Shown piece by piece: positions 23,001 to 61,689 of a stretch of DNA of 64,000 nucleotides. Source of the DNA: Glossina fuscipes. Taxonomy: Eukaryota > Arthropoda > Insecta > Diptera > Glossinidae. Both the position numbers and the translations under genes were made by a program. The notes under the pieces were generated by a model. The model was not told the DNA's origin and made no database searches. It was given only the letters and a program-made list of their open reading frames with translations. Location of the stretch: NCBI RefSeq assembly GCF_014805625.2, contig NW_023998423.1, positions 1,382,277 to 1,446,276 on the forward strand, written 5' to 3'. Positions within the stretch are counted from its first letter, which is position 1. Each line of letters begins with the position of its first letter.

Positions 23001-23559
23001 TTTCACAGCTGCTGCTTTCTGCTAGATTTAAATAATCACAAAGTGTTAACAGAATAACATTTGCTTAAATAGTGTGGAAAACGAACCCCGTAACGCTTAC
23101 AAGGCTTTTTACAAAATGTATAAAAAGATATTTTTTTTCTGCTGCATTCAATAATATTTTTTTTCTTCTGATTGTTATAAATTTTAGCACAACACTTTGT
23201 ACCTGTTGTTCTGCCTCTTCTTCATCTGTTATTCAGCAAATTAACAACAGAAAATTCACTGAGATATGTGCTTAGTACTGATACAATGTGAAGAATAAAA
23301 TATAAATATCTTGCACTACACTCATTGTTGTAAAATTCGGTATTAAATATATTTTTGTACCGTAGCATTTGTTGAAGAGATGGAGAAGGAAACTAGCAAC
23401 CAGCTGATAATAACTAAAATTTTTAAAATAATTTTATTCTTAGGCAACATGGACATATAAGCCACAAATTTATTGGCAAAACAATTGGTTCATCTTAACT
23501 CAACATCCACAAAAAAAAAAAGAAAATTTGGTTAGGCAATCAATTTTTATAAGTTTGCA
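23001..23559. promoter_or_regulatory. Divergent promoter region of ataxin-10 and ALKBH8
   Basis: The 559 bp between the two start codons must hold both promoters. It is AT-rich, with CAGCTG at about 23007 and CAGCTGATAA near 23400. I see no TATA box at a convincing distance. The ORF at 23072-23275 has no support. Confidence 0.5.
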
Positions 23560-25431
23560 ATGCCTCGTTCTTATGAGAAGCGAAAAGTGGAGAGAAAACA
23601 AAGACGCTGCGAAGCCATTATACAAAAAGAGTGTCACATCCAAGCGCAAGAAGAATCGTCAAAATACTTGGCGATACTAAACGCCGGCCTAGCGACGGGT
23701 CTCACGGAGGAGCTAGTTTTGCTTACTGCCGAACAATACGGGAAAGTTGCAAAACTTCTAATGTTACCCAACAAGTCGTATTGCTTTTTAGAGTGCATGG
23801 GTCAAGAAGATGCTGAGTTAATATTTGCTAATATGCATGGCAGAGCCAATGTTGGGCAAAACGAAACTGTTATATATATGAGTTACTTTCAGCAATTACC
23901 TGCTCTCGGAGTTGACACGTGGTCAAAATCTTTGCCAAAAGGCTTGGTATTAATTAAAGATTTCATTAGTGAGGAAGATGAACTTGCTATCTTAGAAGCT
24001 ATTGATATGGAATCTGTAACTGATGATTCACTGAAACATCGTAAGGTTAAACATTTTGGCTATGAATTTCTGTACGGCGTAAACATCGTAGATGTAAAGC
24101 ATCCCTTAGACCGAAAGATACCCAAGGAATGCACAAAGTTATGGGTCAAACTGGCCACAGTGAATGAGCGGGAGCATTATAATTTTGAATGGCTCGTACC
24201 CGACCAATTAACGGTAAATGCTTATGAGCCCGGCCAAGGCATACCGCCGCATGTTGATACGCACAGCGCTTTCTTGGATCCGATACTATCTTTGTCTTTA
24301 AAAAGCGATGTAGTCATGGATTTCCGTAATGGTGCGCAAAAAGTGTCTGTTATCTTGCCACGCCGTTCGTTGTTAATAATGTCGGGGGAATCAAGATTTA
24401 ATTGGACTCACGGTATAACGCCTCGTTTGATGGACGTTGTAACCACGACAAAGGGAAATCTTACTGTAAAGAAAAGAAAACAAAGAATTTCATTAACGTT
24501 TAGAAAACTGCGAAAAGGTGCATGCAATTGTGATTTTCCTCTTTTGTGTGACAGTAAACAAAGTGGTATAATAAAAGACAAGAAAGAAGTCATACAACAA
24601 GAAAATGCTGTACAACTTGAAGAATTTAATGTGCACAGTGTTTATGAGCAAATAGCAGAGCATTTCAACGAAACCCGTCATACTCCATGGCCGAAAGTTA
24701 CGGAATTTCTTCATAGCTTTCCACAGGGTTCAGTGTTACTTGATGTAGGATGCGGTAATGGTAAATATTTAGATTGCAATTCAAACATTTTAAATGTCGG
24801 TTGTGATCGTAGTCAAGGTTTGCTGCAAGTGTGTAAAAGTTTACACTACAATATTTTACGTTGTGACTGTCTTCAATTGCCTATACGAAGCAGAAGCATA
24901 GATGGGTGTATTAGCATTGCTGTTATACATCACTTGTCTACTGCAGAAAGACGTTTAAAAAGTTTGCAAGAACTGCTGCGAATCTTAAGACCATCGGGAA
25001 AGGCTTTGATTTATGTCTGGGCTAAAAATCAAAGCAATGATAATAAAAAATCAAGTTACCTAAGGCAAAATAAAGCTTTAAATAAGGAAAAGACCACCGC
25101 CGACCAACAAAGACAAGAGACTTTAAAGCAATTGGAAGAAAAAGCAAGTCAATCACCCGTTCTATTGCCGATACATACGAATCGCACTGAATTCTTGCAA
25201 CAAGACGTTCTAGTGCCCTGGAAGCTAAAATCCAAAGAAACTCAAAAGAATGCAGACACTTTCCTACGTTACTACCATGTTTTCGAAAAAGAGGAGCTTC
25301 AAAATTTAGTCAAACAAATCGAGGGAGTGACTATATTGAGTAGTTATTATGATCAGGGCAATCATTGTGTTATAATTGAAAAAACTGAAAATCAAGAAAC
25401 TACTAGGAAGACAATAAAAACAGCCCTTTAA
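23560..25431 (+). CDS. ALKBH8: ALKBH8: tRNA wobble-uridine methyltransferase/hydroxylase, single exon
   Basis: Bifunctional enzyme that completes mcm5U34 (methyltransferase domain, with TRMT112) and hydroxylates it (AlkB domain) in selected tRNAs. The 623-aa intronless frame has, in order: a basic N-terminus; an RRM-like domain about 35-115 (KLLMLPNKSYCFLE); an AlkB Fe(II)/2-oxoglutarate dioxygenase about 125-316 with H231-x-D233 (PPHVDTHSAF), distal H284 (NWTHGI) and R309/R315 (RISLTFR); a Cys motif (CNCDFPLLC, 322-330); and a class I SAM methyltransferase from about 360 with motif I VLLDVGCGNGKY (392-403) and the later NILRCDCLQLPIRS and ISIAVIHHL. All catalytic residues I can check are present, so it looks active. 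Corresponds to fly CG17807-type genes. An AATAAA lies 7 nt past the stop. Confidence 0.96.
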   Translation: MPRSYEKRKVERKQRRCEAIIQKECHIQAQEESSKYLAILNAGLATGLTEELVLLTAEQYGKVAKLLMLPNKSYCFLECMGQEDAELIFANMHGRANVGQNETVIYMSYFQQLPALGVDTWSKSLPKGLVLIKDFISEEDELAILEAIDMESVTDDSLKHRKVKHFGYEFLYGVNIVDVKHPLDRKIPKECTKLWVKLATVNEREHYNFEWLVPDQLTVNAYEPGQGIPPHVDTHSAFLDPILSLSLKSDVVMDFRNGAQKVSVILPRRSLLIMSGESRFNWTHGITPRLMDVVTTTKGNLTVKKRKQRISLTFRKLRKGACNCDFPLLCDSKQSGIIKDKKEVIQQENAVQLEEFNVHSVYEQIAEHFNETRHTPWPKVTEFLHSFPQGSVLLDVGCGNGKYLDCNSNILNVGCDRSQGLLQVCKSLHYNILRCDCLQLPIRSRSIDGCISIAVIHHLSTAERRLKSLQELLRILRPSGKALIYVWAKNQSNDNKKSSYLRQNKALNKEKTTADQQRQETLKQLEEKASQSPVLLPIHTNRTEFLQQDVLVPWKLKSKETQKNADTFLRYYHVFEKEELQNLVKQIEGVTILSSYYDQGNHCVIIEKTENQETTRKTIKTAL

Positions 25432-30057: not shown

Positions 30058-30284
30058 CGCCTGAGTAATCGGGTAGGCAAGGGCAGCGACTGCCAAGTCA
30101 GTGTTCGCGGGTTCAAATCTGAAGTGCGGTAGAGTTTTCTTTGATCGTAACTAGTAGTGTATGCTAAGGCGGTGAAGGCNNNNNNNNNNAGTTTTCTTTG
30201 ATCGTAACTAGTAGTGTATGCTAAGGCGGTGAAGGCTTATTGATTAGGCACCAACATAGTGATCGGTCACATAAAAAAAAAAAA
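30058..30284 (+). repeat. tRNA-derived SINE with poly(A) tail, split by an assembly gap
   Basis: GCCTGAGTAATCGGGTAGGC resembles a class II tRNA A-box region, and GCGGGTTCAAATCTG is a near-canonical B box. A body and an A12 tail (about 30271-30282) follow. The head aligns with the minus strand at 52315-52160 and more loosely with 15224. The 47-nt body segment before the N gap is repeated after it, so the true element is probably about 170 bp. Confidence 0.7.
30180..30189. other. Assembly gap (10 N)
   Basis: Ten Ns with the identical 47-nt sequence on both sides (30133-30179 and 30190-30236). Confidence 0.99.
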
Positions 30285-35564: not shown

Positions 35565-38329
35565 TTACAAATATTCGGGCGGTGGTGGTTTTTCATCGGG
35601 TGGCGATGGACCCGACACCGAAACCATTGGTAAATTGCTGATCTTCGGCGTTAAGCATTTCAATTTTATCGCTTTTGGACTATTGTCTTGTGCTTGGAGT
35701 TGAGGAGTTAGGGCCGGTGATGCTGTAGATGAACGCTGTTGTATTAAGATAGGTGATCGACAGATATTGTTATTATTAGTTAACGGGTTAATATTATTAT
35801 AATTGCTGTTTTTTGCATTCATGGTAGTATTATCTATAGGTGTGAGGACTAACTCTTCGACCGTATCAGCCGAATCATGGAAAGTCGAATTTATTGACGC
35901 TGTATTAGCTAAGCTTATCGAAGGAGCTATTGTTGTTACATTGTCACGTTGTTCATGTTGTTGCGGTTGCTGCTGTTGCTGTTGTCGTTGTTGCTGCTGC
36001 TGCTGCTGTTTCTGTTGTTGTCTCTCCATGTCTCTAATATGTGGTGGTGGGGTTTCTATAGATATGCTACCCACGATGCGATTGGAGGTGGTTACAGCAG
36101 CGGAATGACCCAACACTGTAGTGGCAGCCAGTAATTTTTCGACATTATTCTTTAATGCCGCTATCGGATGGTTTTCAACACTCTTTGAACACTCTTGCAA
36201 TTCTATAGAATACTCATTTTGACCATCGGAATCATTGCCGACATCATTGTTATCGTCAGTCTGCCATTGACGTTTTTCCGAAAAACTTTTCTGTTTAAGA
36301 AAAACGAATGTATGTACTTAACGATAGTAAAAAAAAAAATCATGTTTATATGATTTTCCTTTAGAAGCAGAGTGAGTGAGGAGGAAGTATAGCAACAGAT
36401 ATAGTACTTGATTCTTTATCAATTGAAAATGCCGAATGAAAACTAAGTTTAAAGTTTTTTTCTCTAGAGAATGTGGTTTAGAGATATTTAATCTAAAGCT
36501 TTACTAAAAGCGTGGTAGTAATTTTTTATATTCAGAAGTTGTTAATGATAAATAGAAATTTTTTATATATATGAACGATATTTTCTTTCGACTTTAAAAA
36601 CATTTATTAACAGCGAGCGAGTGAGGAGTGTGGGTAAACGTTTTCCGAAGTTTGATTTGACTATAAATCGGTTTTAACAGTCTTTTACAAGAATATTATG
36701 AAAGGGTGTAAAAACATTTAAGAGCCGTTTTTTTGATGAGAAGAATTTACCTAACGGGCAAAAGTCTCTAAAAGTTCCATTCTACAGGTTTTCTATCTCT
36801 AAGTAAATAAATTATGTTTATGAAATTAAATGGAGCTAAAATATTTTAAACTTACGAAAACTATAAACCTTTTCCCAAATTTTTTTCAAGGTTTTCGAGA
36901 CTGCGATTAACCTGAAATGTTCAATTTTCAAACGATTTTCATTGTTTAAGCAGCTTTAAGGTGGGAGGAGCTGGTCCGAGCGGGAGCAATTTTTAAGAGA
37001 CCATTATAAATATTTTGTATTCGTCTCCCTGAATCAATGCGGAATGAGAATTGTTTTTGTAAAGTGCGACCAGTTTCCTAGACTTGGGTTTTTACGCCCA
37101 CTTACTTATACTTTTGGTTTCTGTAGCTATTCCTATTTACTAAGAATATTAGCCACCTTTCTTTTACAGTTTCTAATCTTATGTTAGGCTTTGAGAAGCC
37201 AAGAATCTTCGACATTTTACATATTTACGTTTACTCTTCGGGAAGTGATTCTCGTGCCATTTTTGATAATCTTTTAAAAGATCAAAAACTACGATGCTTT
37301 AAAGCTGTGTTTTTTATTGAATGGAGGTCTACAGCTTTATTCTCTATGTATGATGGGCATACAAATGTTAGATAACAGTTTGCAAGGGTACTTCAAATAA
37401 TATATTCCTCGTCTTGTGAGAATGTGAGAAGAGACGATAGTTTATGCAAAGTTATTTTTTATTTTTGTTACACACTTAATGCTAATCAAGTGAAGTATGA
37501 ATGCGAAGATTTATATAGGAAAGCGTGAAGATTTATGAGAAGAAGAAATTTCTCGAATTTTTAATGAAAACAGAATACAATATTGCTTTCATAATACAAT
37601 CATATGTACCATTAAGAAATATATGTAACTTACCTTTCTACCATTATCCGTAATATTTTCAGCACTTTTTGCCTTCCGACATAATACACTTTGCGAGCCA
37701 TGCCTACGCAAAAATTCTATTGAATCAAAACCCCTACCTTCAGATGAGACAAATATTGCTGAATTAATGCGACTGCGTGTGATACGCTCAGATATGGAGG
37801 CTGAATGCTCCTCCGGAAAAAAGTGGAAGTGCTGAAATCAAGAATAAGAAAAACCCGCACAAGAGAAGAAAGAGCGCACAAAAACGAGAACGGGAGCGCA
37901 CGCGTAAAAGTGAAGAAAAATAAAGAAAGAAAGAAAGAAAAGAGAACAAGAGAAATGCAAAACATACAATTTTAAAATATCACCAACTGTTTATGTCACT
38001 TATGTGCACGCTTTTAAATGAAGCAGCTAAAAAAGAACATTTAAAATGCTTACACGACTACTACTACAGTGTAGTGGTTGATAGGCGGCGAGTGCTCCGC
38101 ATTCGCTACTATCGAACTGAATTTGTCACACAGCCAACCAACATAATGTGGAATTGACACACACAATAGGTATGAAAAATACGAAAAAACAAAAGATACG
38201 GTAAAGAAATTGAAATACACGTTAAACTTTATGTCTTGAAGCTAAGATAATAATAACAATACATTGTGATGGAGTTTGCCGTGTGTGAGTATGTGGAGAG
38301 AGGCTGGATACAAAGAGAGAGATAGAGAT

Positions 38330-38370
<41 letters not shown>

Positions 38371-40851
38371 GAGAGAGAGAGAGAGACTATAGAATGATAT
38401 TTACAAACAAGAATCTTTCAATGGTGATTATAGATTACGGGGAGAGAAACAGAAAGTTAGGGAGAAAGGGAGAGAGCAAAAGCGAGAGATTGGTGAAGGG
38501 AAGAGAGTTTTATTAGAAAAACAAGCGAAAAAGCAATTCATGATTCTTATAGAACATTGCTTTAATTTCTAATATAAAGCAATTTGCCGGTACAAGGGAA
38601 GAATAGTACGGAAATCGATCTTCACATCAATTTTTAAAATCCTTTTTATGGTCTTAAGCCTTTAAAAAATATTTCGCCCAAAAACCTTACTACTTGAAAT
38701 TGAGGCGACTATGAAGTCATTTAACCTTTTAATCTATTCCCTAAACGGTAAGCAACATGAACTTTGAAAAATATAAACAAAAGAACACACAAATAATAAA
38801 AACTTTTAAAAACTGGAAACGATAGAAATTGTAACTTAACCGAAGGAAAAAAGGGGATGCGCGTAATGACGGGTGGGCAAGCAGAAAAGCAGAAATAGAG
38901 ATCAACCAAATAAAAGGCAAACAGAATAAAATTAAAAGAGAGATAGAAGAAAAGAAAGAACATGAGAAGGAAAAGCTATACCAGAACAAAAGCAATCAGT
39001 GAATCAAAGCTGTAGCGCTTTGGTGGATTTATTGGATTCGAGTATGTCGCTCCTTTTTTTTTCATATCGTAATCGACACTGTGTCAACTTAATTGATTGA
39101 TTGATCTGATGGATGATTGCTTGGCTTTGCTAAGTGTTTGTTAACAAAGCAAACTGTGAAAAGAATAAAGCACAACAACAACAAAAAAAAAAAAGAAAAA
39201 ACGAAAGGCAAGAAAAAATTGTAAATATTTTGAGCGAAATGTTAAGTCAAATTTCAAGTCGAATTTCTTTGTGCCAATTGCTTGACTTGGCCAAAATGCT
39301 GTTGAATTTGGTTCGTTGATGAAATATGATAAGGTGGGGCGGATGATTGGAATGCCAATAACTATGCAGGTATGCGAATAGACAGACAACAACAACAAAT
39401 CAAAGACGATGAATTTTATATAAAACTTAATTTACGAGTATTTCCAGTGTTTGTTTGTTTTTCTGAATTGGCGAAAGTGATAGTGCTTTTTTTTGTTTTT
39501 GAAATGTTTTTGTTTGTGGTAATAGTGGTGGTCTTGTGCTCTGCTGTACATAATTCGGTGATAATGGGTGGATGGGTGCTATAATCCAATCACCAACCAC
39601 TACAATAAAATTCTTTAACTTATTTATTTAGTTTATGACGTAACTGATATACTTCAATGTGACGTTAGGTAGAAAAACGTGAAACTTACGCTGTGTCGTT
39701 CGGTCGTGAGATTTGTATGATTGAGTGTAGTGGAATCGGTACGTATAGTATCACTAGCTGCCATACTGTGGCATTTGGGGAGATGATAAGAATCTTTGCT
39801 ATCGTGCGAATCGTCGCGACTACGTTCAGCATAGGAAAATTGTCGTCGATATAGGCGACGCCGTCTAAAAGCATTCGGATTCGTGCTACTCAAGCTGTTC
39901 AAATAATTCGGGCATATGGTCTTATGCAGGGGAAGTAATGATGTTGGTGCTGGTGGTAAGGGCCTATGATAACAATAATCATAACTAAATTGACGACGTC
40001 TCCATTGTTCATATTGACGATAATGACTGAAGAGACGTCTACGCCTTAAAATAAGTTGTTTTTTAGCTTCGAACAAATCGTCTCCTTCATTGGCAGCATT
40101 ATCCTGAGAATTTTTCAAAATACTACGCTGAGCAGCATAACTTTTTTGACGCAATTGCCGATGAAAATCGCATTTTTCCTTTTGGGTATGTACTGGCCGA
40201 CAGTGATGCTCGCAATGATGTTTAACGTCACAGTCTAATAAGCTTTCACGTTCTTCAACTTCTAAAGTAGGCTCGGATAAAGTCATATGACTATTGCTTC
40301 TCATATCCCGAAAGTCATGTTCATCGACACCGCTGTACGTAGTTCTGCGTATACCGCTGCCGCCACTGACGGGACTTTCAATGCTCTCTACGCGTTTATA
40401 ACTCTCTGATGATGTATTACCACCATCGACGCGAGTTGGTTGCTAGCTTTCTACGTCGGCGCGATGTAGCAAAGCAAACTGACAGCCGCAATCACGTTCC
40501 AATTCGCGGCGCGGATATTGAAAGCACCGATCAAATATACCACAGCCTTCACACCGTGGTAAACACTAAATAATCCAACAGCACATAATTGTTAAGCATT
40601 AAGTTTCAAGTAACGGTCATTATTAAAAAAAGAGTAAAGAAAATTTCTAAAAAAAAAATTATTTCACTAAAGTGATAGAACGTAACCGGATTACTCAGGC
40701 AGGACAACAACACAAAAGCTTTCAAAGCAAAATTTCGATAAATACTTCTTAATTTTCTTTTTTTTCATTCTTCTTTTCGATATCAATTCCTACAAGAAAA
40801 TATACATAGAAAAATCAATGCATAGCAGAAGACAGAAATAGAAAGAATGTA

Positions 40852-40888
<37 letters not shown>

Positions 40889-43800
40889 AAAGAGAGATAG
40901 CAAAAAGGAAAAAACGAAGTAAGCTCACATGCCTGTAGATTGAAAAAAAAGAAGTAAATAAATCTGGATTGTGAACAGAGCATCTATCTGGGGGGCACAG
41001 CTCATTACGCAGGCTGTGATTTTTGAAAAAGTTAACCAAAACATCATTTTCATCAATTCATGCAGTTTTTGTTGTTGTGCGATTTGCTTGAAATCTCACG
41101 ATACCTCCTAATTACATACAATTACAATTACAAGTACAAGCAAAATGTTATAGTTCTTAACTAAGCCTTTAGAGGTCTTTCACTTGTCCTATACTTGTTG
41201 TTTTCATGTCGTCGATTGTTATTGTGGCAAGAGCTACTCTGAACAGTTCAGTAAAATTAAGCAAAATAAAAACAGGGGAAAATTCTTTATATAACAAAAA
41301 TTGTTTTAATTAATAATCTAAATGGGGTTTTAATTAATGACCATTTCAATCAATTACGAAAGCATTCCAAAATTATTTTCTAAAAATGCAAGAAATTAAA
41401 TATATTTTAATATATGTCATTACAATTAATTCTATTTGGGACTTGGGTAGGTAAGGCGTGTTCATTGCAAAGAAAGAAAATCGCAAAATGAAGATGTAAT
41501 AATTGATTCAAGGAAAAAGTTCGTGGTATTTTGCTGTTGCAATATAAAGCATAATTAACTTAAGGCCATGTTTGTTTGCGTGGAACTGCTACGAATACTT
41601 TAAGCGAAAACTTTGTCTCGAAATATGCAAAGGAATGCATTCAAACTTTGTGTTGTTTAAAAGCCTGAAAAGTGTTTTATTTCTCAGTTAAAGTAAGCGA
41701 GAAAATCGTTGTACCCATCGTGGGAAAATATTAATTTCCTCATCTCATAGGTAACAACCAAAAACAAACGATGAGGACTTTGAACTTTTGGTTAAGATGA
41801 CGATCGCATAAAGCTCTGCCGCGTTTAATCACAGCTTTCAATCCCATATTCCTAGAAGCGCACCCTACTATTCGACGCAGTCGAAACGCATAATCTCATA
41901 ATCGATCGTGTACCCCTTTGCAAGTGATTTTCTCCGACGCAAATTTAGAAGACATATATATTTGCGAACATCTTAGACTAGCGGATGTGCAGTAGAATGT
42001 TCCGATCAACCCCAAGCCGCGATCATGCAACACACGAGCATGATTGATTTCATTGAAGTTCGTGTCTGGTTTGCTAATGAAATCATTACGTGTTGCTTGC
42101 AACCGAACCTAGGTTTCAAACCGGTCGACTAGCTATACTAATCAAGCTATCGTTTTTATTTTTACTCGACATAGAAAAGTGTCATCCACGTGTCCGCCAT
42201 AAACCACATCATGAAGCCAGACCAGACAGACCAGAAATTGTGAACTACGGATACTTTAAACTTCTTAATATCGTGGATAGATACATTAATACATCAACCA
42301 CGAATGGAGATTAAGGTCGCTCACTAACTATGTTGCCTTAGAACATAGACTATTTTATTGAAGATCGCATCTGCAATATTCGCCAAATGCGAGATACTAT
42401 CGATCTGAAGTTTCGACGGGAATAACCAAAGTTTATATCCGTCTTTATTGGGACCATCCTTTGCCAGTCACGAACCAAGAAGTATGCTGGTTTTTTTTTT
42501 TTCGCGTAAACCACTCCACGTTCAATCTCTTCATCCCGTCTATTCAGAAAATATGAATCAATAGTAGACAATAAATTATGCTGCACTCGCCCATAAATCC
42601 GATACTTGATCGCAAACTGATAACAAGATAATTTAAATTTCGAACGTTGTAGAATTTCCATCGCGTGAGGGTGATATAATGGATTATATGTCTGCCGCAA
42701 ACAAACTAGAGAAACACATCCCGACAGATATCATGCTTTTTTAATGGCGGTCTATAGCACCTTATACGATACGATAGACCTTAAAGGCCATCCTTCGAGA
42801 TCTTCTGGCAACTAAGACTTGCTTATCTAAAAGTGTGCTTTAGTCTAAGTTAATGCCTTGCCTTGTCTTACGTCCATCTTAACGCATTTAATAAGAGTGC
42901 AAGCCTTCCCAATCTTCGTGTGAGTATAGTAAGTTTTACGGGCAACTCGATACGAAGGAAGGTGCCACTTATGCCATATACAATATTTATAAGTGTTCTA
43001 TAGACATTTCATATTTTCCGCTTTATCCCAGAGATGATCATTATTATCACGTGTCTAGTAAGATTGTAAGCTTTCAAGCGTAAAATACGTGCTGACAACT
43101 AAATTCCCAAAGGCTTAGTTTTAGTTGGTTGTTTAAGACTTTGTTTTTGGTTTTCGGTTTCTGGGTTTCCATATCCGATTTGTATTTGTATTTTATATGT
43201 ATATATATATATATAAACACTCCGTTCGCATGCATTAGACGCACAAGCAAAAAACTATTGTATGTATGTGTTAAACTCTCAGAAATTGATTGAGAGACAT
43301 AAGCCATCGCTTGCCAAATTCATAAATAAGAAAAAAAAAAAAAAAAATGTTCTAAAAATCTATTGAACAATATTTCCGAAAAAAGAAGGAAAGACTTAAA
43401 AAAAGTAAATGAAGCGAAATCGGGAGAAAAAGCAAAAGAAAATGTTATGAGAAAAAATTCGATACCTTAACGAACATATCGTGATGTAAATTCTAGAGGA
43501 AAAAGAACAACAAGAACAAGAAGAAATAAGTTTCAATTGCATTTAGGTGAGGGGATAGAAAAAGAAAAAAGAAATTAGAGTGTGAAAGAAACGGTATAAT
43601 TTTAATATCCTCCCAATTTGATTAACGTTTATCGCCCAACACACATAACGTCATTTGAATTTTTCGACATGAGCGGATGTAAAGTTTGTTAAGATATCCC
43701 AACATTTTTGGAGTAAATTTATAAGAGTAAATGTGTTGTGCATGTTTGTGTTGATATGAACTGTTAATGTATTGAAAGAAAATTATAACTGAAACTTTTC

Positions 43801-46800
43801 GAAACTCATGGAAGCGTTTTATTTGTTTGTTCATATAACCTGTCGAAAGTAGGCCAATTATTCTTAATAACGTTGCAAGAGTGTCATTAATGAAAGACAA
43901 AAAAAAAAAAACGATTCCTTTAACAAATAAAAATGAGAATTAATTATTTGGAAAATGCCCCAGTAATTAGTAAAGCGTAGAAGCTTTAATTACATCCACC
44001 GCCAGAAAATAGTTTATTAAAAATGTATTATTTACTTTTTATAAAGCACACAAGGTGTGCATGTCTTTCTGTATTGTATATACGCGTATATATATAAGTA
44101 TGCATGTCCGTATGTTTGGATGTATGTATATATGTATGCATGTGTTTATATTTATATGTGTCAAAATAGATGCAGGTAACATATTAGGGCCGGGCCATTA
44201 ACCTGCACCTTTTCGCCTAATACCATGCTTCACCTGACTGGATATATATAGAAAATTATACTTTGAAAGGCGTGACACATAAAGAAGTGTCCTTCCTGAG
44301 AACCTCACGCAATTAACAGGAGCCGCATTTTAAAAACTTTCCATGGACGAAATAAATGGAGTCTAATGTATGTGTAAATGAGCCTTGCTTTAGATAAGGT
44401 AATGCCATTGTCACATAAGATCAATTCATTGCCTAATAATAAATGTTTTTACATAATAAAGTTGACGTTAATTGGGGATAAGAACTTGTTTTCGTTACGA
44501 ATGCTTAAGCAGTTCGTTGGGTAATTTAATTTTAAAAGCCCTTCAATTCTGAGTTTACTTGCTGGCAGGCAGGCTTACTCGCGCTATACAGAAGACATAT
44601 TACTAAATGGCATTTATATTACGTTTTATTGAAGCCTTGAGTATTTGCATCGAGCGGTACTTTGTTTTATTTCACTCTTCTATTTATTTTTTCATCTACT
44701 TTTTCATGCGTCAGGCAAAGTTAACTGGTTACCGCAGTTCCTGCCGTTTGGGCTATGAGTTCGTGCTACGTGTACCGTGCTCGCAACACGACAGCATATC
44801 CAATCATCTTTAATATACACTCTCTTTTTAAGCGTATAAAGGCAAACGTATTTTCGTCGCAATCATTTAAAAAAGAAATCATTTTATAAATATTGGAAAT
44901 TTTATTAATGATCATTTAATTTAGGCTTATATGGGGGTATTTTAGCTTCGGATACGTTATGTATACGTTAAATGTAATATTCCAATAAGTTTTCAATATT
45001 CATTTTCATGCCCTACACCAGTTGCGGTACAAGGACATATGAAGTTTGTGCGCAAGGACAGCAGATAGAGCTTCTTTCTACTGATCGATCGCTTTCTGAA
45101 CAGAGCTGTTTGACGACGCGTCTAGGCATCCGGTCGTCTGTCTTGTTTTTTGCCTTCAAGCTACGAGTTGCAATTTTTGAGATATTTGCACTGGCACGCT
45201 TTGGCCCAGAAGGCTCTTGAAAATTGTTCAGATCAGACCATTATTTCGAACCCTTCCAATATAAAGTTTTATTTTGAAAAGTCCTTTTGTGAATAATTCT
45301 ATTAAGCGAAATGCTGTAAGGAATTAATGGTTTTACAATAAGTTTAATAAGTTAAATATTTAATCCCGCTAAGCACTTTTTATAATAAAAAGATTACAAA
45401 ATAAAAAGTAATTCATTAACATATAATACAACAACAATTTATTTTTAGATTCTTGTATTTTAATTTGAAAAATTGGCTTACGTAGATGCCGTAAAGAGAT
45501 GTTAAAGGAAAATGACATTGAAATCGTTGAACGCAGTAGAGAATGTGTTAAAAACAGTTTACGTCGACAATTCACACCCACCAGGTGGTGTTGGAATTCA
45601 CAATCAATATGATTATTTGACGGTTTTTGAGTTCGCGCTTGTCGCGGTGACGGCCGTCATAATGTCAATGATATATCGTACCTCTACCGTAAAAAACTAG
45701 TCTACGTGCTTCATTTGGAGCTAGAGAAACGAAAAAACCTATACTTGCCGTTACTAATCTTAAAGAAGCACGACCAGAGCGTCCTCCACAAAGAGGTTAT
45801 GCCCTTAGTTTAGCAGTTCGCGTCATGATAACCGTCGGATTAAATAGGAAAAAGAGGACTTGAGGCCGTGAGAGCGTTTCTTATTTTGTGCAAAGATCTC
45901 TATTTATTCAAAATTTCCAAAAGCTATGTTTTATACAATAAAGCCAAGATGAGAACTTAGACCTAAACTTGATGATTTGGCATAACGTGGAATAGGGTCC
46001 CATGCGTTCTAATACCAATAATGCTCTCCATTGTAAATTGCTTGAAATTGTTTATTTGTTATATTTCCTTAATATTCTCCTAATTTTCAAATTGCATTAT
46101 TTTTTAAAGCTCTTGGAAATTTTAAAAACATTGCATTTTAATTTTTACCGACTTTTTTAAAATGTTCTGCATGAAATCTTTCATACGAGAATAAGAAAGA
46201 AGACAATGAAAAAAGGGGAAGAGAAGAGAAAGACATTATGGAATTTTTTTCCCCTTTTTAATATGCTTGCTCCAAGCATGTTTGTGTAATGTGAGTGATT
46301 GTGCTCGTACTATCCCCGAGGAAATTCTCTGAGGATCTACTCTAAAGGTCTTGTTCATTTCATCGTTTTATTATTATTATTGCTTTTTGTCCTTCTATTT
46401 TGTTACAGGTTTTTTTTTTGTTTTGTTTTGCTCAAATGTAGTTGATTTTCTAAACTCTATTTTTTCTTTTGCCAGGTGTGTGAGTGTGTACGTGTGTTTC
46501 AAAAAGAATAATAAATGTATGCATATTTTGTATATTTATGTAACATGAATATATATATGTACCTGATGCGAATGCTGACCGTTACAAACTCCGCCACTGC
46601 ATACACCAGTGCCGGGAACTTTGAGTTGCTCATGCTTATAGTCAGGCTGATAGGGTAACAGCATGCGTATTTTGCCCCAACGATTAAAGAATAATGCAAT
46701 CGCTCCTGCCCACACCATCAATACTATAAGAACGATGCCAATCTCAACGCCACGTATCTGTAATAAATTTCGCAAAAAAACAGTAGAAAACCAAATAAAA

Positions 46801-47469
46801 CAAAAGAAAAAAAAAAAAACGTAGGAAATAAGTTCAATACTTTTTCTCCACAGTAGAAAAGAAAAGAAAAATAAGACAATAAGTGCAACTTGTTCTTCTT
46901 GTTGCAATGATGAATAACTAGCGATATTGCTATTGAAGAACAATAGTAAAACAAATCAGTTTATCGAGACATTTAAGTTGACATTAAACGGGTTCAGGTT
47001 GATAAAAGTTTCTTCAATAGACATGTGCTCTACAACTAACCGTTGGTAACTCTCGATGCGTTCCATGGGAGAGAGTATTGGTAGCGGTTGAGGTAATGCC
47101 TGCGTCATCATCTCCAGACGTTTCACTGCCATTACTAATTCCGGGCGGTCGGCCATTATTTGGGTTTCCGCCGAAACCTACTCCCGTGCTAGGTGTGAAC
47201 ACCATACCATTCGCTAATAAATCTTGTTGTGAGAGAGGTTTCGGTAAATCTATGAGAGAGCATAACCCAAATACAAAAAAGTGTATTGAAAGTTCATTTT
47301 CCCGTTTGTGTCAATTTATATCAATTTACCTAATGTGCGGAATACTATCTGACGACTGCGATACTTTTTGCCCATCCAAATTGCTGTTACGGTTATTGAG
47401 TACTGAGTGCCAGGCGATAATCGATCCAGTACAATAGCTTCGCTGTTGCCGGCCACGTCCTGCATAACC
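35565..47469 (-). CDS. FNDC4/5-like type I membrane protein with long cytoplasmic tail (5' exons missing), 6 exons in window
   Basis: Exons: 47469-47330, 47249-47041, 46757-46563, 40565-39690, 37831-37634, 36290-35565. All joints are phase-consistent; from the TM exon onward all are phase 0. The first exon gives the C-terminal half of an FNIII domain (SPGTQYSITVTAIW, then VFRTL). A Gly/Ser/Thr-rich linker of about 70 residues follows, then one TM helix (IVLIVLMVWAGAIALFF) resembling vertebrate FNDC5 in order and TM sequence. The cytoplasmic part begins Cys-rich (CLPRCEGCGIFDRC), then meets an in-frame TAG at 40445-40443. Beyond it the frame stays open for 558 residues: Arg-rich blocks, a Gln-rich run (exon 6) and a C-terminal PPPPEYL. 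The signal peptide and N-terminal FNIII half were not found up to 64000. Likely a surface or shed-ectodomain protein; function is inferred. A stop this early could also mean a short-tailed isoform only. Confidence 0.8.
35960..36025 (-). repeat. CAG/CAA repeat encoding a polyglutamine tract
   Basis: Within the last exon of the FNDC5-like gene. The minus strand encodes Gln runs interrupted by Lys, Arg and Pro. The plus-strand Cys/Leu-rich ORFs at 35803-36134 are shadows of it. Confidence 0.9.
38313..38387 (+). repeat. (GA)n/(GATAGA)n microsatellite
   Basis: Long purine tract in the intron between exons 40565-39690 and 37831-37634 of the FNDC5-like gene, with further GA-rich sequence to about 38510. 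It is pyrimidine-rich in the transcript. Confidence 0.9.
40443..40445 (-). other. In-frame TAG stop in CARYYA context (candidate translational read-through)
   Basis: Reads AGC TAG CAA CCA ACT on the minus strand. The codon is in phase with the upstream TM exon (both phase 0) and with the downstream frame (47 codons to the Met at 40304). CAACCA fits the CARYYA consensus that makes UAG leaky in tobacco-mosaic-type read-through. The alternatives are an assembly error, an allele-specific nonsense change, or an unseen intron. Confidence 0.7.
40855..40886 (+). repeat. (GA)n microsatellite
   Basis: About 16 GA units, 290 bp upstream (in the transcript) of the exon carrying the in-frame TAG. It produces the Ser-Leu run in spurious minus-strand ORFs. 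Confidence 0.9.
45005..45330 (+). repeat. Dispersed repeat family A copy
   Basis: Starts CCCTACACCAGTTGCGGTAC, has AGTTTGTGCGC, CGAGTTGCAATTTTTGAG, TGGCCCAGAAGG, GATCAGACCATTATTTCG and AAAGTTTTATTTTGAAAAG. The ORF at 45008-45220 is repeat noise. Confidence 0.7.
45512..45856 (+). other. Two adjoining plus-strand frames of unknown origin
   Basis: An ATG frame 45512-45700 (62 codons, with a hydrophobic stretch EFALVAVTAVIMSMIY) is followed at once by a second open frame to about 45860 containing ARPERPPQRGYALSLAVR. The pair looks like one coding stretch with a frameshift. I recognise no family. It lies within the 6-kb intron, opposite to the host gene. Confidence 0.2.
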
Positions 47470-47794
47470 CTGTAACTTAAATTAATTCAATTACCACTCT
47501 ATGTTGTTTACTAACTAGATAAGCATAAGCGTATTATTATGAGTCTTCGGCCGTACGGCGTACGTGAAAAGTTTGTGTATGTATATCTATTATATATGCC
47601 GCCTTTAACAGGTGAACAGCACAAATCTTAATCGAATGAATACCACCGTAGCAGTGTCGGTGTTTCGACATCAAGCGGTCGGGACTCAGCGCTCAGAATA
47701 TTGAATGTAATAAAATAGCAAGAACATCATATACCGTCTTTAATTATATTATATTTTATAATTATATGATAATATTTCAACTCAAGTTTAAAGT

Positions 47795-48345
47795 CTACAC
47801 ACATTTTTAGGACAAGGAGGTATTAAGTTTGTAAGGATGTATACAACATGCAGAGGACTTGAGGTATATGCCTTATAATATTATATCGACCGATTCAAAG
47901 TCACTTTCTGAAACGATTTAAGCTTGTTTGTCTCTCTGTACGTCTGTCTCCCTGTCCACCCGTTCATCTTGTGGTCTTGTGTTCAACCTACGAGTTGCAA
48001 TTTTCGGGGTATTTTGACGAAATTTGATATACTGGCCCAAGAAAGGACGCTTTTGAAACTGGCTCAGATCGGACCGCTTTTTCGAACACTCCCAATATAC
48101 ACATTGATGAACAGTTGCATTAAGCGATATGGTGTAGAACATTGATTCAGAAAGTGATTCTGGTGTGGACCTAAGCTTCTTTGTCCCTCTGTTCGTCTTG
48201 ATTTTTTGTGCTCAATCGACAATCCGCAATTTTTAAGATATTGTAATGAGTTGGGGAACATTGACATGTTTTGGTCCGCGGTCGAACGCCGCTGAAAATG
48301 GTTCAGAACGGATCACTTTTTGGCGACTTCCGGCATAACTATATA
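47795..48345 (+). repeat. Two head-to-tail family A copies
   Basis: The first (47795-48135) has AAGTTTGTAAGGATGTA, GTCTCTCTGTACGTCTGTC, GAGTTGCAATTTTCGGGG and CAGATCGGACCGCTTTTTCG. The second (48140-48345) restarts with TCAGAAAGTGATTCTGG, CCCTCTGTTCGTCTTG, CAATCCGCAATTTTTAAG and GTCCGCGGTCGAACGCCGC. Confidence 0.7.
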
Positions 48346-49124
48346 CCTGCATCATTGCATTGGTATTTCGATTGGTAGATTTTGTATCATTTCTTTTCTA
48401 ATGGGAGTTGTTCCACCTTTTTTACTTCAATTAAAGAAACTCTAAAAAGTGGATGTAGTTTAACGTATACTTTATAATAAACGTATTTTTTTGATCTTCT
48501 TCCGTACCATTTACGAGATGATGGCAGAGTGCATATCAAGTGAAATAAACTGAATTCCTTATAGTTCTGCCTGAGATAAGGTAACAATAGTTGTATCGCA
48601 TTCGCCTGACATAACGTCCACGTGAAAAGACAAAGCATGTTTTTAAATTAACACAAAAGAAGTCATCGACCTGCGTTTGTGTCCTCCTTCTGTATCTACT
48701 TAACTGAGATATCGTTTACACGGAATTAAGTAAACAAACGTGTAACAAACTTGTGAAAGACTTGCCTCGTTAAGTAACACTCGCATTATTCTACTACGAA
48801 AGTATGAACAGCATAACGTCACCATTGAAATCAGTTTACGAGGTATTAGCTAACAAGACGCACACAACATTTTTCTATGTATTTTGTGGTTTCAGGGAAG
48901 TAATCCAGTTAGTTAACTCAGCGAGTGCTTAATAGAGACCAAGAAGTTGTCAGGAGTTACATTTTAGTTGTTTGAAGTATGAATACTGAGGTCGTTAAGA
49001 TTTAAGGTAAAAAATACAAAACACTAAAAAAACGCTTTTTTGAAAAATCTATAAATAGCGCTCGAAAGAAGAAGTTTCACCAGTAAAAATATGGTTTGCG
49101 TAGAGCGAATTGTTTCGAATGCGA

Positions 49125-49660
49125 TTTTTATGCCCTACATCACATACGGTACAGGACCCGGAAGTATTTGAAATAGATCCATTTTTTGTTATAGCGATCG
49201 ATTTCGAATCCTCTAAGCTTGTCTGTCTGCCTGTCTATGTTTCTTTTGTTCAGCCTACACAGATCGCAGCCATCTTTAGGCTCAAGGATGAACGCTATTA
49301 AAAATGGCTCGGGTCAGACCACTTTTTCGGCCACTCCCAACACGGCCCCTTATTTTGACAAGTTGTTATTTGAAAAAAAATTCCATTTTCGAGAATTTCC
49401 TGAGAAAAACCTCTGAGCAATAGTATTGAGGCGCTCTACATTGATGTGAAAAATTTGGATCGAATGTGGCTATTTTTTGAATCCTCTAACCTAATTTTCC
49501 ATATTTCTTTTTGAAAATGCGTGCATAATAATAAGTTGACACAAACAATAATCTTGCCGAATTTGAACAACGTAGATCTACATTCTGGATCCAATCTCAC
49601 AAAAAGGTTTTAATGAAAAATAATCCTTTACATGGCAAAAATGCCCAATTTTTGGTCAAG
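49125..49660 (+). repeat. Dispersed repeat family A copy with 3' extension
   Basis: Starts ATGCCCTACATCACATACGG and has GCTTGTCTGTCTGCCTGTC, GGCTCGGGTCAGACCAC and CGGCCCCTTATTTTGAC. It continues into sequence resembling 8785-9000. Confidence 0.65.
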
Positions 49661-51084
49661 AAGTCTCATACTTACCATACAAAGAGACTCCCACGACAAG
49701 AAAACACTTCTATGGCAACAAAGTCTAACTTGTAGTGTTTTATGATGGACAAAAGTGGAAGTTGCTAAGACCTTTGACATGTTAATTGACAACATAAAGA
49801 TGCTGAAAACTAAATCTTCGCATAAAAATCGTGTGCAATTTTTAATGTATTACCATGAAAATGAATGAATGTCTGTATTAAGCGAAGTGTTGTAAGATGT
49901 CTAATAGTTGGCCTTTCCCGATTATCGCTATCTTAGATGCTTCGATAAAAGAAAAGCTTAGGGTGTCAACAAGTGTATTGTACGAATCTGTTCACAGTTG
50001 TAGATTGGAGCAAAAGGCTTCGTTTTAGGATCCACTGGTGTGTCGCAATTGTAAGGCGAAGGCGAGTTCTTGCATACGTTTTGATTCCGATTTTGTCGAT
50101 ATTTTTTGCATATAATGGAGGAACTAGGAGCAGAAAGTAATTTGGAAAAATATCTTAATATGAATTAATTTTTTCCAACATAACGTAACAGATGCGGAAA
50201 AATTATTGCGGGACTCATCATGTGTAATTTTTTTAATCAAATTTTTCTTTCATTCAAAATGAATTTTATTTACCCATATATAACTGCTAATATTACCTAC
50301 GAACTTGTGCTACCTTGTGGTAAACGTAATCTTAATAACCTTGCTCTACTTAACTTACATCAACAAGAACTAAAACCAAAAAAGAAAAAATAAGTAAAAA
50401 TACGTAAAATTGAACAAGAATTTCAATTAAACGTCAAAATTAAATCTTACAAACACAAAGAAAATTTTAAATTGAAACCTGGACTACTACTACATAAAAA
50501 TGTAGAAAAGAGGTGAACAATTTATAGAGAAATACAACAGTTGTTCCAGTCCTGTATTCAGTAATCAGCAACAATTGAAGACAAAGTCCTGTTGTTCTTC
50601 TTTTTCTTTTAATCTAAGCGTAATATTTCAATGTTAAGTATATAATTATTTAATCGTTTGAATGCTAACTATGCCAACGTTTAATTATCGAATCGAATAA
50701 AAAAATCGAGGAAAAAATGATATAATACGCATTCTAAAAATTAAAATTAAGAAGAAAATGCACTACCAACAAGTTCGGCGTCAAGCAAAATCACAATGGA
50801 ATATCGAAATGGGGGAACTATCTGATAGGGTAGTGATTTCCCACTACTCTTAAAAGAGCTTTCTCGTGAAACCCCGAAAACCTAATTCGTAAATTAAATG
50901 AACAGATAAGTCTTTGCGTACATACTAACGCTTAAAGGATATAGCAAGTTACGACACCCTAACCGCACGAAAATCGTCGAAAATGTTGATATATACCTCA
51001 GCTATATATGCGCTAGTTCTTAAGCTACGTGTAATTACGGTTTCCTTCTCTTAAACGAATTTAAATCTATGGATAATTTTAGGA

Positions 51085-51450
51085 ACGAAACACTAGCCTA
51101 GTCTTCGATATCCTATAATCTAAATAATAGACGAGGCCGATTTTTTTCCATTTTTGTACAGACGCTTTAAAATATACATGAGAATCTCTATCGGTATATA
51201 CTTTGTAGTTCATGAGTAATTAGAAAAAAATCCAATTATTCCACTTTTGAAAATAAAGCTGTTCTCAGCTTTTTGCCTAATATTACTACCCATGTGCCGC
51301 CAATAACTTGCAATGGTTCTGCAAAATTTGAAAATGCTTCGTCATTGCGACTAGAAAGGTGATATAACACAGATGAGTGAAAAGTAAATGGACAGATAGA
51401 CAGATGAATCTTGATGCTGATCAAAAATTTATACTTTTATATGGTAGCCG
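51085..51450 (+). repeat. Dispersed repeat family B fragment
   Basis: Has GACGAGGCCGATTTTTTTCC, CCATTTTTGTACAGACG and GGACAGATAGACAGATGAATC followed by ATGCTGATCAAAAATTTATAC, matching the central and terminal parts of family B. Confidence 0.45.
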
Positions 51451-51939
51451 ATGTCTATTCTTTGTGGTTGTCGGTATAAATAAATAAAATATACAAACTA
51501 ATAAATGTCTATGTGTGTGATGATAAGGTTAGGGCGCCTTGAATACGGACATAACTCTAAAAGGGTTGTATCTCAATCAATAATCCATCAGGCTGCCAAA
51601 ACTATGGCCTTCTTGTACTTTTCATGGGAATCCTTGATATGCGAAACGTTCCGAAAAATAAACTAATGCGGTACAAAGCTATTATAGCACAATTATATGT
51701 TAAGTCAGTATTATGGATCAATTTTTGTCATAGAAACTTAGAAATCATATCTCATTGATCTAGGAACGCCCCTTTTTTTGTAACAATATTTATAGGTGAG
51801 CAGTTCACGTAATGATCCCGTCCTATTTAAATTTTCGTAATGCATTTCTATATATATGTATATATAGTATGCCAATAAATTGCTTCTCATTGATCTTATT
51901 TGAAAATTACCATAAATTGCAATTATTTTTAGGTGGGGG

Positions 51940-52060
51940 GTTATATGGGGGGCAGCAGTAATAGCGGTGCGATAATTCAGTTTCATTAGTGTTCGTCTTT
52001 GGGCCAAAGCTTGAACCTCATCAGAACACCCCAAAAATTGCGATTATTATATAGGACCGT
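51940..52060 (-). repeat. Dispersed repeat family A fragment, inverted
   Basis: On the minus strand it gives AATTTTTGGGGTGTTCTG, GGCCCAAAGACGAACACTA and AACTGAATTATCGCACC. Confidence 0.45.
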
Positions 52061-52159
52061 AAAAATATATTTTTGAATATGATCAATCATTCGAGCGATG
52101 CCCCCTGTACGTGCGACATGCTGACGGCCAGGAAGAAGAGAAGAAATAGAAAGAGACAG

Positions 52160-52315
52160 GGCGGTGGTTTACCGCGGCCCAGTGGTAAGTATTATGCCTT
52201 TAGTGAGTAAGCAGTCATTACAACTGCGACCAAAGGATAGTTTACTGCACTGAGATTTGCACCCACGAATACTGACTTGAGAGTCGCGGCTCTTATCTAC
52301 TCGGCTACTCAGGCG
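52160..52315 (-). repeat. tRNA-derived SINE copy
   Basis: On the minus strand CGCCTGAGTAGCCGAGTAGA (A-box region) is followed by CGACTCTCAAGTCAGTATTC and GGGTGCAAATCTCAGTGC (B-box region). It matches the 30058 copy across at least 75 nt, and more loosely downstream. A Leu/Ser-type (class II) tRNA ancestor is suggested by the GCCGAGT motif. Confidence 0.65.
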
Positions 52316-55300
52316 AACATTGACATATATTGACGGGAAATACGGACACGCAGCTTAAATCGGTTGAGAATCGTTTTCTACTACAATCAAATCGCGCCTC
52401 TTTGTGGGGGTGCACAAAAGTAACGTACGGTCGCCTCTAGTTAGTGTAGTAGGGAATAAAAAGCAATATTTTGAGTGCAAATGTTCAGTCAATAGTTCAC
52501 TATTTTGAATTGTGGGACAGCAAGTTAGCAAAAACGACTGATACTTTTCTCTCATTGTATTCTTGACGCTTAGAACAAACAATAGCCAGTGAAAGCATTG
52601 ATCATTCGCCTGCTGGAATAGTGTTTCCTTTGTCTAACGAATTATTCATGAAAAGATAAACCGTAGAAGTAGAAAACAATGTTTTGCCTAATGAATGGCC
52701 AGAATTCAAATCAAACACTTAACTTGCAAATATCTACATCACCTAATGCTAAAATTTGTATTCAGATTCTCTACCTCAAACAGCAAATTAAAATCAAAAA
52801 ATCAATCCAGTGTGAAATTAGAAACCTGAAGTAAGATGTCTTTTCAATAACAATAAAATTGGAATGAGGTAATTTTCGAAATAAATGCTTAGATATGGTA
52901 CCTGTACTACACGTGACAACTACACTTACCAGACTTTTTGTTTATTTATTTCAAAACAAAGAAAAAAGTCTTCGAATTTTTGGAATTTCTTCGCTGAGAA
53001 ACTTTTCAGTTCATTTTATCACAAAAAGCTATTGGTAATATATTAATAAAGAACCACGTCATCCATCATCAAGCACATTTAAAAGTTTTCAACAGGATTT
53101 TGCACTGGTAAGCGAAAGTATCGTCACTTTGTTAAGACCAAATTTCTTTTAAAAGTTTACTTTTTACTAATTCTTTTTTTTCAAGCTACGCAAGAGAGAG
53201 AACGAGAGAGAAATTCGTCTCTTACATTTTTGTACTGACGGCCGGAGTTAAAAGTAAACCAATTTGTCATCCTGCTCAGAAGCAGATAGTCAGAGATGCA
53301 TTGTCGTCATTTGGTTAGACAAGAACTTTTACAGTTCACTTAAGACGGCCGCCATGTGAAATTGCGACAACTTCACTGATTAGGAAATTGCTTACCATTC
53401 AAGAAAAAAGATATATTCAATAATAAAAATAGGCACGAAAAGTGATAGATTAGTAAAAGAGACGCTTTTTGAGACAAAGACCTCGTATTGGGTCCTAAAG
53501 TAGAGGAGGATCAAGTGAAAAAATTTTTTCAGTTCTACTGAAAACCGTTATTCATCAAGATTCATTGCACTCGACAAATTTGAATTTCGCACGGAAATAT
53601 ATTCACAGCAAATGCTTTAAAGATAGGAGCTTTTGGTAGAAGGCCGCCTTTAATGTCATATGCATGCTAATAAAAATTTTTAATTTTTCTACAAAAAGGT
53701 CCAGGCTTTCTTCCGTGTACATATTAGAGTATAGGTTGAGCCGATTCATACATATTTTGCCTTTCCGGCAGCGTCTTCTCTTTCGATGGGAACTGATCGC
53801 ATTCGTTTTAGGGAGAAAGTTCTGTTGATATAAATTTGTTAATGTTCTTCTTCTTTTTTTTTGCAACAAAGTAGGGTGTTTAAGGCTTCCTCGGCAGTCC
53901 CATAACTCCATCCACTCCGCGATCATGCGGCAGTGTTTGATATCTTAGAAGCAGCATCATTTTCAATCTTTTTTTCATCTATTTCTCTTCGTGGAATCAA
54001 TTTTGCTATACGATATATATATATACGTAAAAGTCACATTCCATTAACCGCCAGTTTTTTGCTTCTGGCTATTGTATGTCATGAGCAGCTCTTTGGCAAT
54101 AATCGATATTGCGTCTATGCATATTTTAGCGCCTATACCTCTTGAATAACTCAACAATACGAAATGGAAAACGTTTATATTATGTGGAGAAAGGTCAAAT
54201 CAAGGCCAAAATCAACGAATATAATGGTCGTGTGCATTAGTATTTCGCATTACCTTACCATTTTTCCCAATAGATATCGGCATGCAGAAGCGTGCAACAG
54301 TTTTATATGCGTATGTGCACTTCACAACGTAACTCTGACTTTTTCCTTCTTTCTTCGCAACGTTCCCAAGGTTTTGACGAAATGAACATGTCAACCACTC
54401 TTGAATGATTTGTACAAAAATCGACTATGTACACATCGACTGTATAACAATTGCAATGCACACGTATGTCCGCGGTTCATAAGAGTCTCGCAAGCACTGA
54501 ACAAAAGCTGAACAACAGCGATAAAATTACGGCTGTTGTTGTTCAAACATAATGAAGAATGAAAAACAAACGCGTACCATCGATTTCAATTAGCTCAGAT
54601 TGAAAACAAGTAAAATAGTAAACAAGGAAAACAACTGCTACTAAGCAAATTACCTTAAGCTGTCGTCACGAAAAACGTCTGTACAAAAACGACTCTCTTC
54701 TTAATAAATAATGATACTCTATCACGGAACTTATCCTTTGTTGGCTGCCTTTAAATTCAACGTCAAAAGCTTAGCGTTTCTTTCTTCTCTTATAAAAGCT
54801 GGGTGATATAGATCTCAATGACAACTTTTAGATATTTTTCCAAGCCGATGCTGTGCTATCTCGTCGCCCTATCGTTTGCAAGCAACTGTTATAGTGTTTC
54901 CGCTTTTATTACTCTGCAGTATGTGACGATTTGAATAAATATTAAAGCCGTTTAAAACGATCATCGGTTGCGATGCTACACTGCTACTAACGAAAGCTTA
55001 TAAGATTTTCCTTTCCAAGATTTCGATTTCTTTTCAGAAGAGCTACAAAAATTATATTCAACTCTGCTGAAACGAAAATATTTGGATTGCAAAATACTTT
55101 ACAAAATTGTGGGCAACTTGGTTATTGTGAACGCCATTTTCAAACTTTACTTCCGCCAAACCATGGTTAGGGTTGTGGTCAAGAGAGGAGTTGGAAGAAG
55201 GAGGAATACGAGGGCGACCGTTTGTGTGTGTATGAAATAAAGATAAGAACACAAACAAAGTCAGAAAGGATCTTTACAGATAAGGGCGGTCAAGGAGTTT

Positions 55301-55979
55301 AAAGAACATGCAATCGTGGTAGAAAATGTTTTGGAAACCTGAGAAGTGCGGCAGGCCGTCATATTAAAAAGTTCGATTGTTTGATAAACCTTCTTCATTA
55401 CTACAGAACGTCTGTCGTCGAAATACCTACGCATAAGTTGGGTGTAGCCCACGCAAACTAGCGTTCAGTAATGGGGAAAATCCGGACACAATTCCGTTGC
55501 CTACGAACGCGTTAGCCTTTTCAATGCAGGCATGCGAATGCCACGTTTATCCAGAATATTAGACTAATCACGAGGAGCTACACTTTATGGATCCTCTGAA
55601 GCCATTTCTCTGGATAGTACAAACGCAATGAGGGGCTATCGTTCTATAATCATATGTGTGAAAATATATTCTATAAGGATCTGCACTCCTGCAAACATAT
55701 TAGTTTCTCAAATTTTTCCTTTTGTTTTTTCCTACACATTTGTGTTATACATTTTGCTTCACTGAAATCTCGTTTAATCGGGTGTTAAATTTAATCAAAC
55801 ACGAACGTTTATTTTTTGCTGTTAATGTTTTGCTTCTTTCTTATTTTTGTACCTACTGCCGAAGGATGAAGACATATTCATTTTGTCAGAAAGTGTGCGT
55901 CACACTCAGAAGGAAGCGTCAGCTATCTTATAGAATGAATATTTTCCTATTGAACATGAAATTTTGAGCGGATTTAAGC

Positions 55980-56255
55980 ATGTCCATCTTCCTGTCTGTG
56001 TAGTGCGTGTGATGAACATATTCTTCGTTCCAACAATAGAGGGATAGGATTTAAATTCGACAAAAACATTGAATGTTCTTGCACGCAGTTTGACAATGAA
56101 AATGGGTCACAAAGCAATTGAAGGCCGCGATCACAATACAACGAAAAGCGAGAACACGTCTGTTTTCAGAAGCCCAAATAATTTTCACACTTTATTTTAC
56201 AATGAAGGCGGGGGGTATAAAAGAGTCGGTCACAGCCATATGTAATTTTCTTACT
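55980..56255 (-). repeat. Dispersed repeat family B copy, inverted
   Basis: On the minus strand it reads TGACCGACTCTTTTATACCC, CGCGGCCTTCAATTGC, GACCCATTTTCATTGTC, AAACTGCGTGCAAGAAC and CACACAGACAGGAAG-like ends, in family B order. Confidence 0.45.
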
Positions 56256-58289: not shown

Positions 58290-58355
58290 GCTCCCTTTCT
58301 CCCTCTCCCATTGTCTCTCTCTCTCTATCTCCCTCTTTCTTTGTTTCTTTCCATT
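58290..58355 (+). repeat. CT-rich low-complexity tract
   Basis: Imperfect (CT)n/(CCT) tract that generates a spurious Pro-Leu-Ser ORF. Confidence 0.7.
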
Positions 58356-61262: not shown

Positions 61263-61289
61263 TTGTTATTATTATTATTATTATTATTG
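61263..61289 (+). repeat. (TTA)n microsatellite
   Basis: About nine triplets within a GTT/ATT-rich region. It yields a poly-Ile run in a meaningless ORF. Confidence 0.8.
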
Positions 61290-61689
61290 TTCGCTCCTTT
61301 TTTTTTTTTCACTAAGCGTTACTTTGACGAACAAGCGAAGGAGAATGACTGAACAAAATTAATTGACCAATAACATGGTTAAACAAACAAAAACGAGGGG
61401 TTGGCTGCTTCAGTAACTGGAATAAATACATTGTTGCGTGGGAGCAAATAAACCTTTAGCGTATGAGCTATTACTACTACTATGACTACTACTACTGCTG
61501 CTGCCTCTATTGGCACTGGCAGAGGGAAAAACATCCATAGCTAGATTCTACGAACACATTGCTTCCTTAATGACCTAGTTTTAAACTAAAATGAAAAATC
61601 ATATAAAAAAAGGGAAAATTCCAAGTTTTTTATAATATTAAAAAATTTTCAGTTGCCATTTAAAAAAAAAAAACAAGTAGAAGTCTTAT

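Follow-up and report, generated by a model that had tools for sequence, protein, structure and literature searches.

Read-through of a UAG followed by CAAUCA occurs in Drosophila dfr/vvl, where a hairpin at +10 to +58 promotes it (PMC13170385); peptides and an antibody have proved this read-through, and glutamine is inserted at the UAG (PMC8417969). The stringent hairpin of the dfr study is at least 35 nt long, with a loop of 3-10 nt and no bulge larger than 2 nt, and is found in a subset of read-through genes only (PMC13170385). More widely, 328 FlyBase genes were recorded as read-through genes as of a 2015 survey, with annotated fly extensions of 4 to more than 1000 amino acids (most 8-300) and with read-through sites in alternative exons in Oamb and CG34377 (PMC4528330). 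Recent nonsense changes and alternative splicing were excluded via conservation in the candidate lists for mosquito and fly (PMC5100048). UGA is favoured over UAG as the read-through stop (PMC13170385, PMC5100048), which counts against read-through of the UAG described here. The described fly homologue of FNDC5 is Iditarod (CG33143; PMC10523451), and the main text of that paper contains neither “readthrough” nor “read-through”.

We analysed a 64,000-nt stretch of the Glossina fuscipes genome (the window), which includes ten Ns at 30180-30189 whose flanks share an exact 47-nt overlap, the end of the left flank being the start of the right, left unmerged as a small assembly artefact. By its predicted exons, a gene on the minus strand encodes an FNDC5-like/DUF4808 membrane protein, in the order FN3-like half domain, linker, TM exon and cytoplasmic tail. 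The tail comprises four phase-0 exons 3' of the TM exon, of 876 nt, 63 nt and 198 nt followed by the last coding exon. The sequence anatomy and phases are direct observations, and exon borders throughout the gene are predicted from sequence. The features, all on the minus strand, are:

47330..47469, minus strand: FN3-like exon, second half of an irisin-type domain (ends picked by eye; fn3 and fibronectin structure matches).
47041..47249, minus strand: linker exon between the FN3-like and TM exons (ends picked by eye; acceptor ATAG, donor GTTAGT).
46563..46757, minus strand: TM exon of 65 codons with a phase-0 end, holding the start of DUF4808 (donor CAG/gtacat; Pfam match).
39690..40565, minus strand: TAG-bearing exon of 876 nt, phase 0 at both ends and frame-neutral, absent from the DUF4808 profile (sequence, splice phases and Pfam; donor AGC/gtaagt).
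38054..38116, minus strand: candidate phase-0 exon of 63 nt, FDSSECGALAAYQPLHCSSSR (sequence; borders look usable).
37634..37831, minus strand: phase-0 exon of 198 nt and 66 codons, second half of DUF4808 (phases, Pfam).
35565..36290, minus strand: last coding exon of 241 codons and a TAA, with polyQ and a C-terminal PPEYL (sequence).

The first-pass annotation of this locus had called the product FNDC5-like, an identity borne out by the FN3-like exon together with the DUF4808 match. The FN3 half domain (ORF 47486-47319) scores 19.5 bits against Pfam fn3, below the cut-off of 25 bits, and the same ORF matches fibronectin structures with a best E of 2.2e-9. For the first half of the domain, three frames of ~47500-64000 matched 0 families. 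A PDB search with the TM segment and short tail gave two weak matches (E 0.075 and 0.31), and a scan of 36000-52000 at Rfam gathering thresholds gave 0 matches. At the C-terminus, PPPPEYL (35582, minus strand) holds a PPxY motif, presumably of the kind bound by WW domains. Iditarod has been described as combining an irisin-type (FN3) extracellular domain, one TM segment and an intracellular domain, a plan that the gene resembles in its FN3-like half domain, TM exon and cytoplasmic tail; we do not claim orthology to CG33143, CG12541 or CG42389. CG42389 has been reported as a polyQ locus in a stalk-eyed fly (PMC3055267), and its equation with the present gene is a guess. The word CG42389 is absent from the main texts of PMC3840789 and PMC13170385, and the passages that mention CG42389 in PMC5932544 and PMC5499145, or DUF4808 in PMC8615036, are uninformative for the present gene.

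The DUF4808 family profile (PF16066), which is Pfam's own and was built independently of the window, matches the TM exon at columns 2-62 (columns 2-61 and 94.0 bits for this exon alone) and, separately, the exon beginning at 37831 at columns 76-120. Direct joining of these two exons yields a single match that covers columns 2-120 of 121 and scores 136.6 bits (cut-off 27 bits). Insertion of the 63-nt exon brings the score to 137.0 bits, and the profile is thus uninformative on the use of that exon. When the 251 codons that follow the TAG are placed between the two exons, the match splits in two, at 133.1 bits. The profile thus lacks the TAG exon, which suggests that the usual DUF4808 family form is made without it; the profile bears on the family form and does not demonstrate skipping in Glossina fuscipes itself. 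Because all the exons are in phase 0, skipping the TAG exon would keep the frame, and the exon is probably optional, that is, a cassette.

This arrangement changes what the long downstream frame can mean. The first-pass annotation had proposed a 558-codon extension reachable by read-through, on the grounds that such a frame, with clean splice joints, is not expected after a true terminator. Its 251 + 66 + 241 codons, of which 307 lie in the two later exons, are present as claimed, but the 63-nt exon was omitted, and the extension would be 579 codons if that exon is used. Since the family profile passes directly from the TM exon to the 37831 exon, ordinary splicing that skips the TAG exon would suffice for the shared tail, and its assumed dependence on read-through is not supported. 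We therefore rejected the 307 later-exon codons as support for read-through, as they are coding in a family form that lacks the TAG exon; the argument from an open frame is weak for them and counts for the 251 exon-specific codons only, which alone need read-through or some other explanation. The trap is a general one: where in-frame skipping of the stop-bearing exon is possible, the exons beyond it code for protein anyway, and a long frame after the stop is weak evidence of read-through.

Within the TAG exon the following features are distinguished:

40446..40565, minus strand: 40 codons before the TAG, for a Cys-rich short tail beginning CLPRCEGCGIFDRC (sequence, codon score).
40443..40445, minus strand: in-frame TAG (sequence).
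40437..40442, minus strand: CAACCA at +4 to +9, which fits CARYYA (sequence).
40400..40437, minus strand: predicted hairpin of 38 nt with a loop of 6, at +9 to +46 (folding).
39690..40442, minus strand: 251 open, coding-like codons after the TAG (codon score).

The TAG, the CAACCA and the phase-0 open frame of 40 + 251 codons reported earlier are thus all present in the sequence. Given the base composition of this segment, an open run of 251 codons has a chance probability of ~3e-7. Counted from the TAG, codons 47, 53 and 227 are in-frame ATGs. The local context at 40445-40437 combines UAG, a C at +4 and CARYYA. We take UAG CAACCA to be a leaky context of the CARYYA type, a label carried over from the first-pass annotation; the papers searched for that term do not contain it. 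With both strands of the window counted, CARYYA follows three of 1564 TAGs, the present TAG included, and in frame it follows 7/1943 codons in a control set of five stretches that includes the gene's own last exon; these counts of rarity are non-blind, as the motif had already been named. The 251-codon part also holds two putative motifs, a dileucine-like ERESLL and an SH3-like RPLPPAP. Pattern searches for relatives of this part gave one viral match and 23 in the prokaryotic collection, of which tblastn confirmed 0, and are silent on flies. As a separate observation, a frame read on beyond the donor of the TAG exon reaches a stop at 39654, and soon past it lies an AATAAA (39628, minus strand), a possible intronic polyadenylation site.

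Codon composition was scored with a table trained on five stretches of the window assumed to be coding. Three of these lie within Pfam-matched ORFs (BOP1NT, ataxin-10 domain and ALKBH8-like) and the other two are 10950-10300, whose ORF (10274-11020, minus strand) had no match in a Pfam scan, and 4660-4280; z values are relative to composition shuffles from which stops were removed. In frame 0 the 40 codons that precede the TAG score 0.230 per codon, as against -0.148 and -0.399 in the other forward frames (z 2.10, reached by 2.3% of shuffles). The 251 codons after it score 0.222 in frame 0, as against -0.156 and -0.241 (z 5.03, reached by 0/2000 shuffles). The frame is thus seen directly to be coding-like in composition both before and after the TAG. 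The signal begins immediately after the stop, ahead of any in-frame ATG or candidate acceptor, the first 46 codons having a z of 2.64 (0.35% of shuffles as high), and it continues through codons 41-120 (z 4.08), is weak over codons 121-200 (z 1.09) and rises again over codons 201-251 (z 2.63). The 63-nt exon is too short to give a clear coding signal by itself (z 0.25). With an intron-based score, 0/1237 open, overlapping 40-codon intron windows reach the value of the pre-TAG segment, a comparison that in part reflects base composition, the segment having 51% G+C and the introns being more AT-rich.

The predicted hairpin after the stop is suggestive at best of read-through. For the 46 nt that follow the TAG, the predicted fold has an energy of -13.4 kcal/mol (z -3.24, 0/200 shuffles as good), in a window picked after the longer fold was known. 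The z value is -2.10 over 56 nt and -0.97 over 123 nt, where 40/200 shuffles are as good. With a fixed length of 60 nt it is -1.70, and among 1896 control coding windows (TAG exon included) 93 have as low a z and 139 as low a minimum free energy. A hairpin of like place and size occurs at 1169/6378 control positions, and one of like energy as well at 134, these positions being overlapping, non-independent and inclusive of the TAG exon. One side of the stem carries three unpaired bases, which puts the hairpin outside the stringent dfr rule.

Taken together, these features make UAG read-through the best single explanation and a moderately likely one, with about an even chance of being correct. 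In the proposed mechanism, the UAG stands near the start of a frame-neutral cassette exon of an FNDC5-like/DUF4808 membrane protein. Skipping of the exon would give the usual family protein, with the TM segment joined to the conserved tail, and inclusion would give a short, Cys-rich cytoplasmic tail ending at the UAG. Some rounds of translation would go further: with help from CAACCA at +4 to +9, and perhaps from the hairpin that starts at +9, a near-cognate tRNA (for glutamine, on the dfr precedent) would decode the UAG, and translation would continue through the 251 exon-specific codons into the shared tail. We infer the splicing as drawn, both skipping and inclusion in this fly, and read-through itself; a cassette exon whose leaky UAG yields skipped, short and extended forms is the explanation we favour, with roughly balanced confidence. 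The further idea of a splicing-gated leaky stop, in which one gene has three cytoplasmic tails and splicing decides whether read-through is possible at all, is more tentative and falls somewhat short of an even prospect.

The locus resembles dfr in its UAG followed by CAA YCA, in a predicted hairpin that starts at ~+9/+10 and in its long downstream frame (286 aa in dfr). Unlike dfr, which is intronless and experimentally proven, it has its stop in a probable alternative exon with further exons after it, and its read-through is a prediction. It also resembles the read-through genes of FlyBase in its long in-frame second ORF and in a stop placed in a probable alternative exon, whereas the evidence for those genes is mainly conservation across species and that presented here is codon composition. 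Among the matches listed in our literature searches there was no report of read-through of the present gene, and we do not claim that it is absent from print. If the proposal is right, a gene of the FNDC5/irisin family joins the read-through repertoire of flies, and a single exon shows splicing and read-through together determining which cytoplasmic tail a membrane protein carries.

The same pattern would arise from an ordinary cassette exon of 292 codons, with a sense codon at this position in most flies, if the TAG were a recent nonsense allele or an error of assembly. A fresh nonsense change would leave one continuous coding frame across the TAG, as is found here, and codon composition alone does not separate such a change from read-through. 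The assembly is moreover not flawless, given the 10-N gap at 30180-30189 with its unmerged 47-nt overlap. On this account, however, the CARYYA that follows the TAG (3/1564 TAGs) would be a coincidence, and we regard such an origin as unlikely.

Slightly less probable is use of the exon from a point past the TAG, by alternative splicing to a 3' splice site or from an internal start served by a downstream promoter, so that the TAG is never read. An in-frame stop would be mimicked by any phase-0 acceptor ending in TAG. Splice sites were scored with rough matrices. As an acceptor the TAG scores -4.0, at the 39th percentile of 3233 AGs, in purine-rich sequence with other AGs close upstream, and we hold it unlikely to be the last three bases of an intron; its poor score agrees with the earlier reading of an in-frame stop within an exon. 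The exon's own acceptor scores -0.8 (74th percentile). Nine in-frame AGs lie between the TAG and the donor, and seven of them, the TAG included, score -2.2 to -5.2. The other two, at 40127 (0.5) and 40103 (1.8), outscore the exon's own acceptor, and the three in-frame ATGs past the TAG (codons 47, 53 and 227) could serve as internal starts. Entry at 40127 or 40103 would nevertheless leave more than 100 codons from the TAG onwards unexplained, the 46 codons before the first ATG are coding-like, and the strong signal of codons 41-120 lies mostly above 40103. Since the coding signal runs up to and beyond the TAG, read-through or a fresh nonsense change fits better than an acceptor far downstream.

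Should the TAG exon act as a poison or terminal exon, its inclusion would yield the short form only, and the coding marks downstream would stem from history or from another use; we consider this rather improbable. The TAG stands 753 nt above the exon end with introns downstream, a position that may trigger mRNA decay, and the AATAAA at 39628 follows shortly after the read-on stop at 39654. That hexamer is common locally (15 in 5701 intron bases), and coding signal is absent (z -1.23) from the 11 codons read on beyond the donor. A poison or terminal exon would also leave 251 stop-free codons with a strong frame-0 signal to be accounted for. A-to-I editing of the UAG to UGG (Trp), which would remove the stop in the mRNA and for which there is ample precedent in the 2005 putative sites over 1307 genes reported in flies (PMC4528330), is very improbable here, as the TAG lies in none of the 14 inverted-repeat pairs of at least 14 nt in 38900-42200, so that no duplex for editing is evident, and in a 1.2-kb fold a short local hairpin is the only structure in which its A is paired. 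Selenocysteine insertion was set aside because it uses UGA and the stop here is UAG.

Elsewhere in the window, Pfam matches mark several further ORFs: BOP1NT at 4766-6248 (minus strand), an ataxin-10 domain at 21788-22973 (minus strand), an FMN-dependent dehydrogenase at 875-1421 (minus strand), and a 2OG-Fe(II) oxygenase with a methyltransferase, an ALKBH8-like combination, at 23536-25431 (plus strand).
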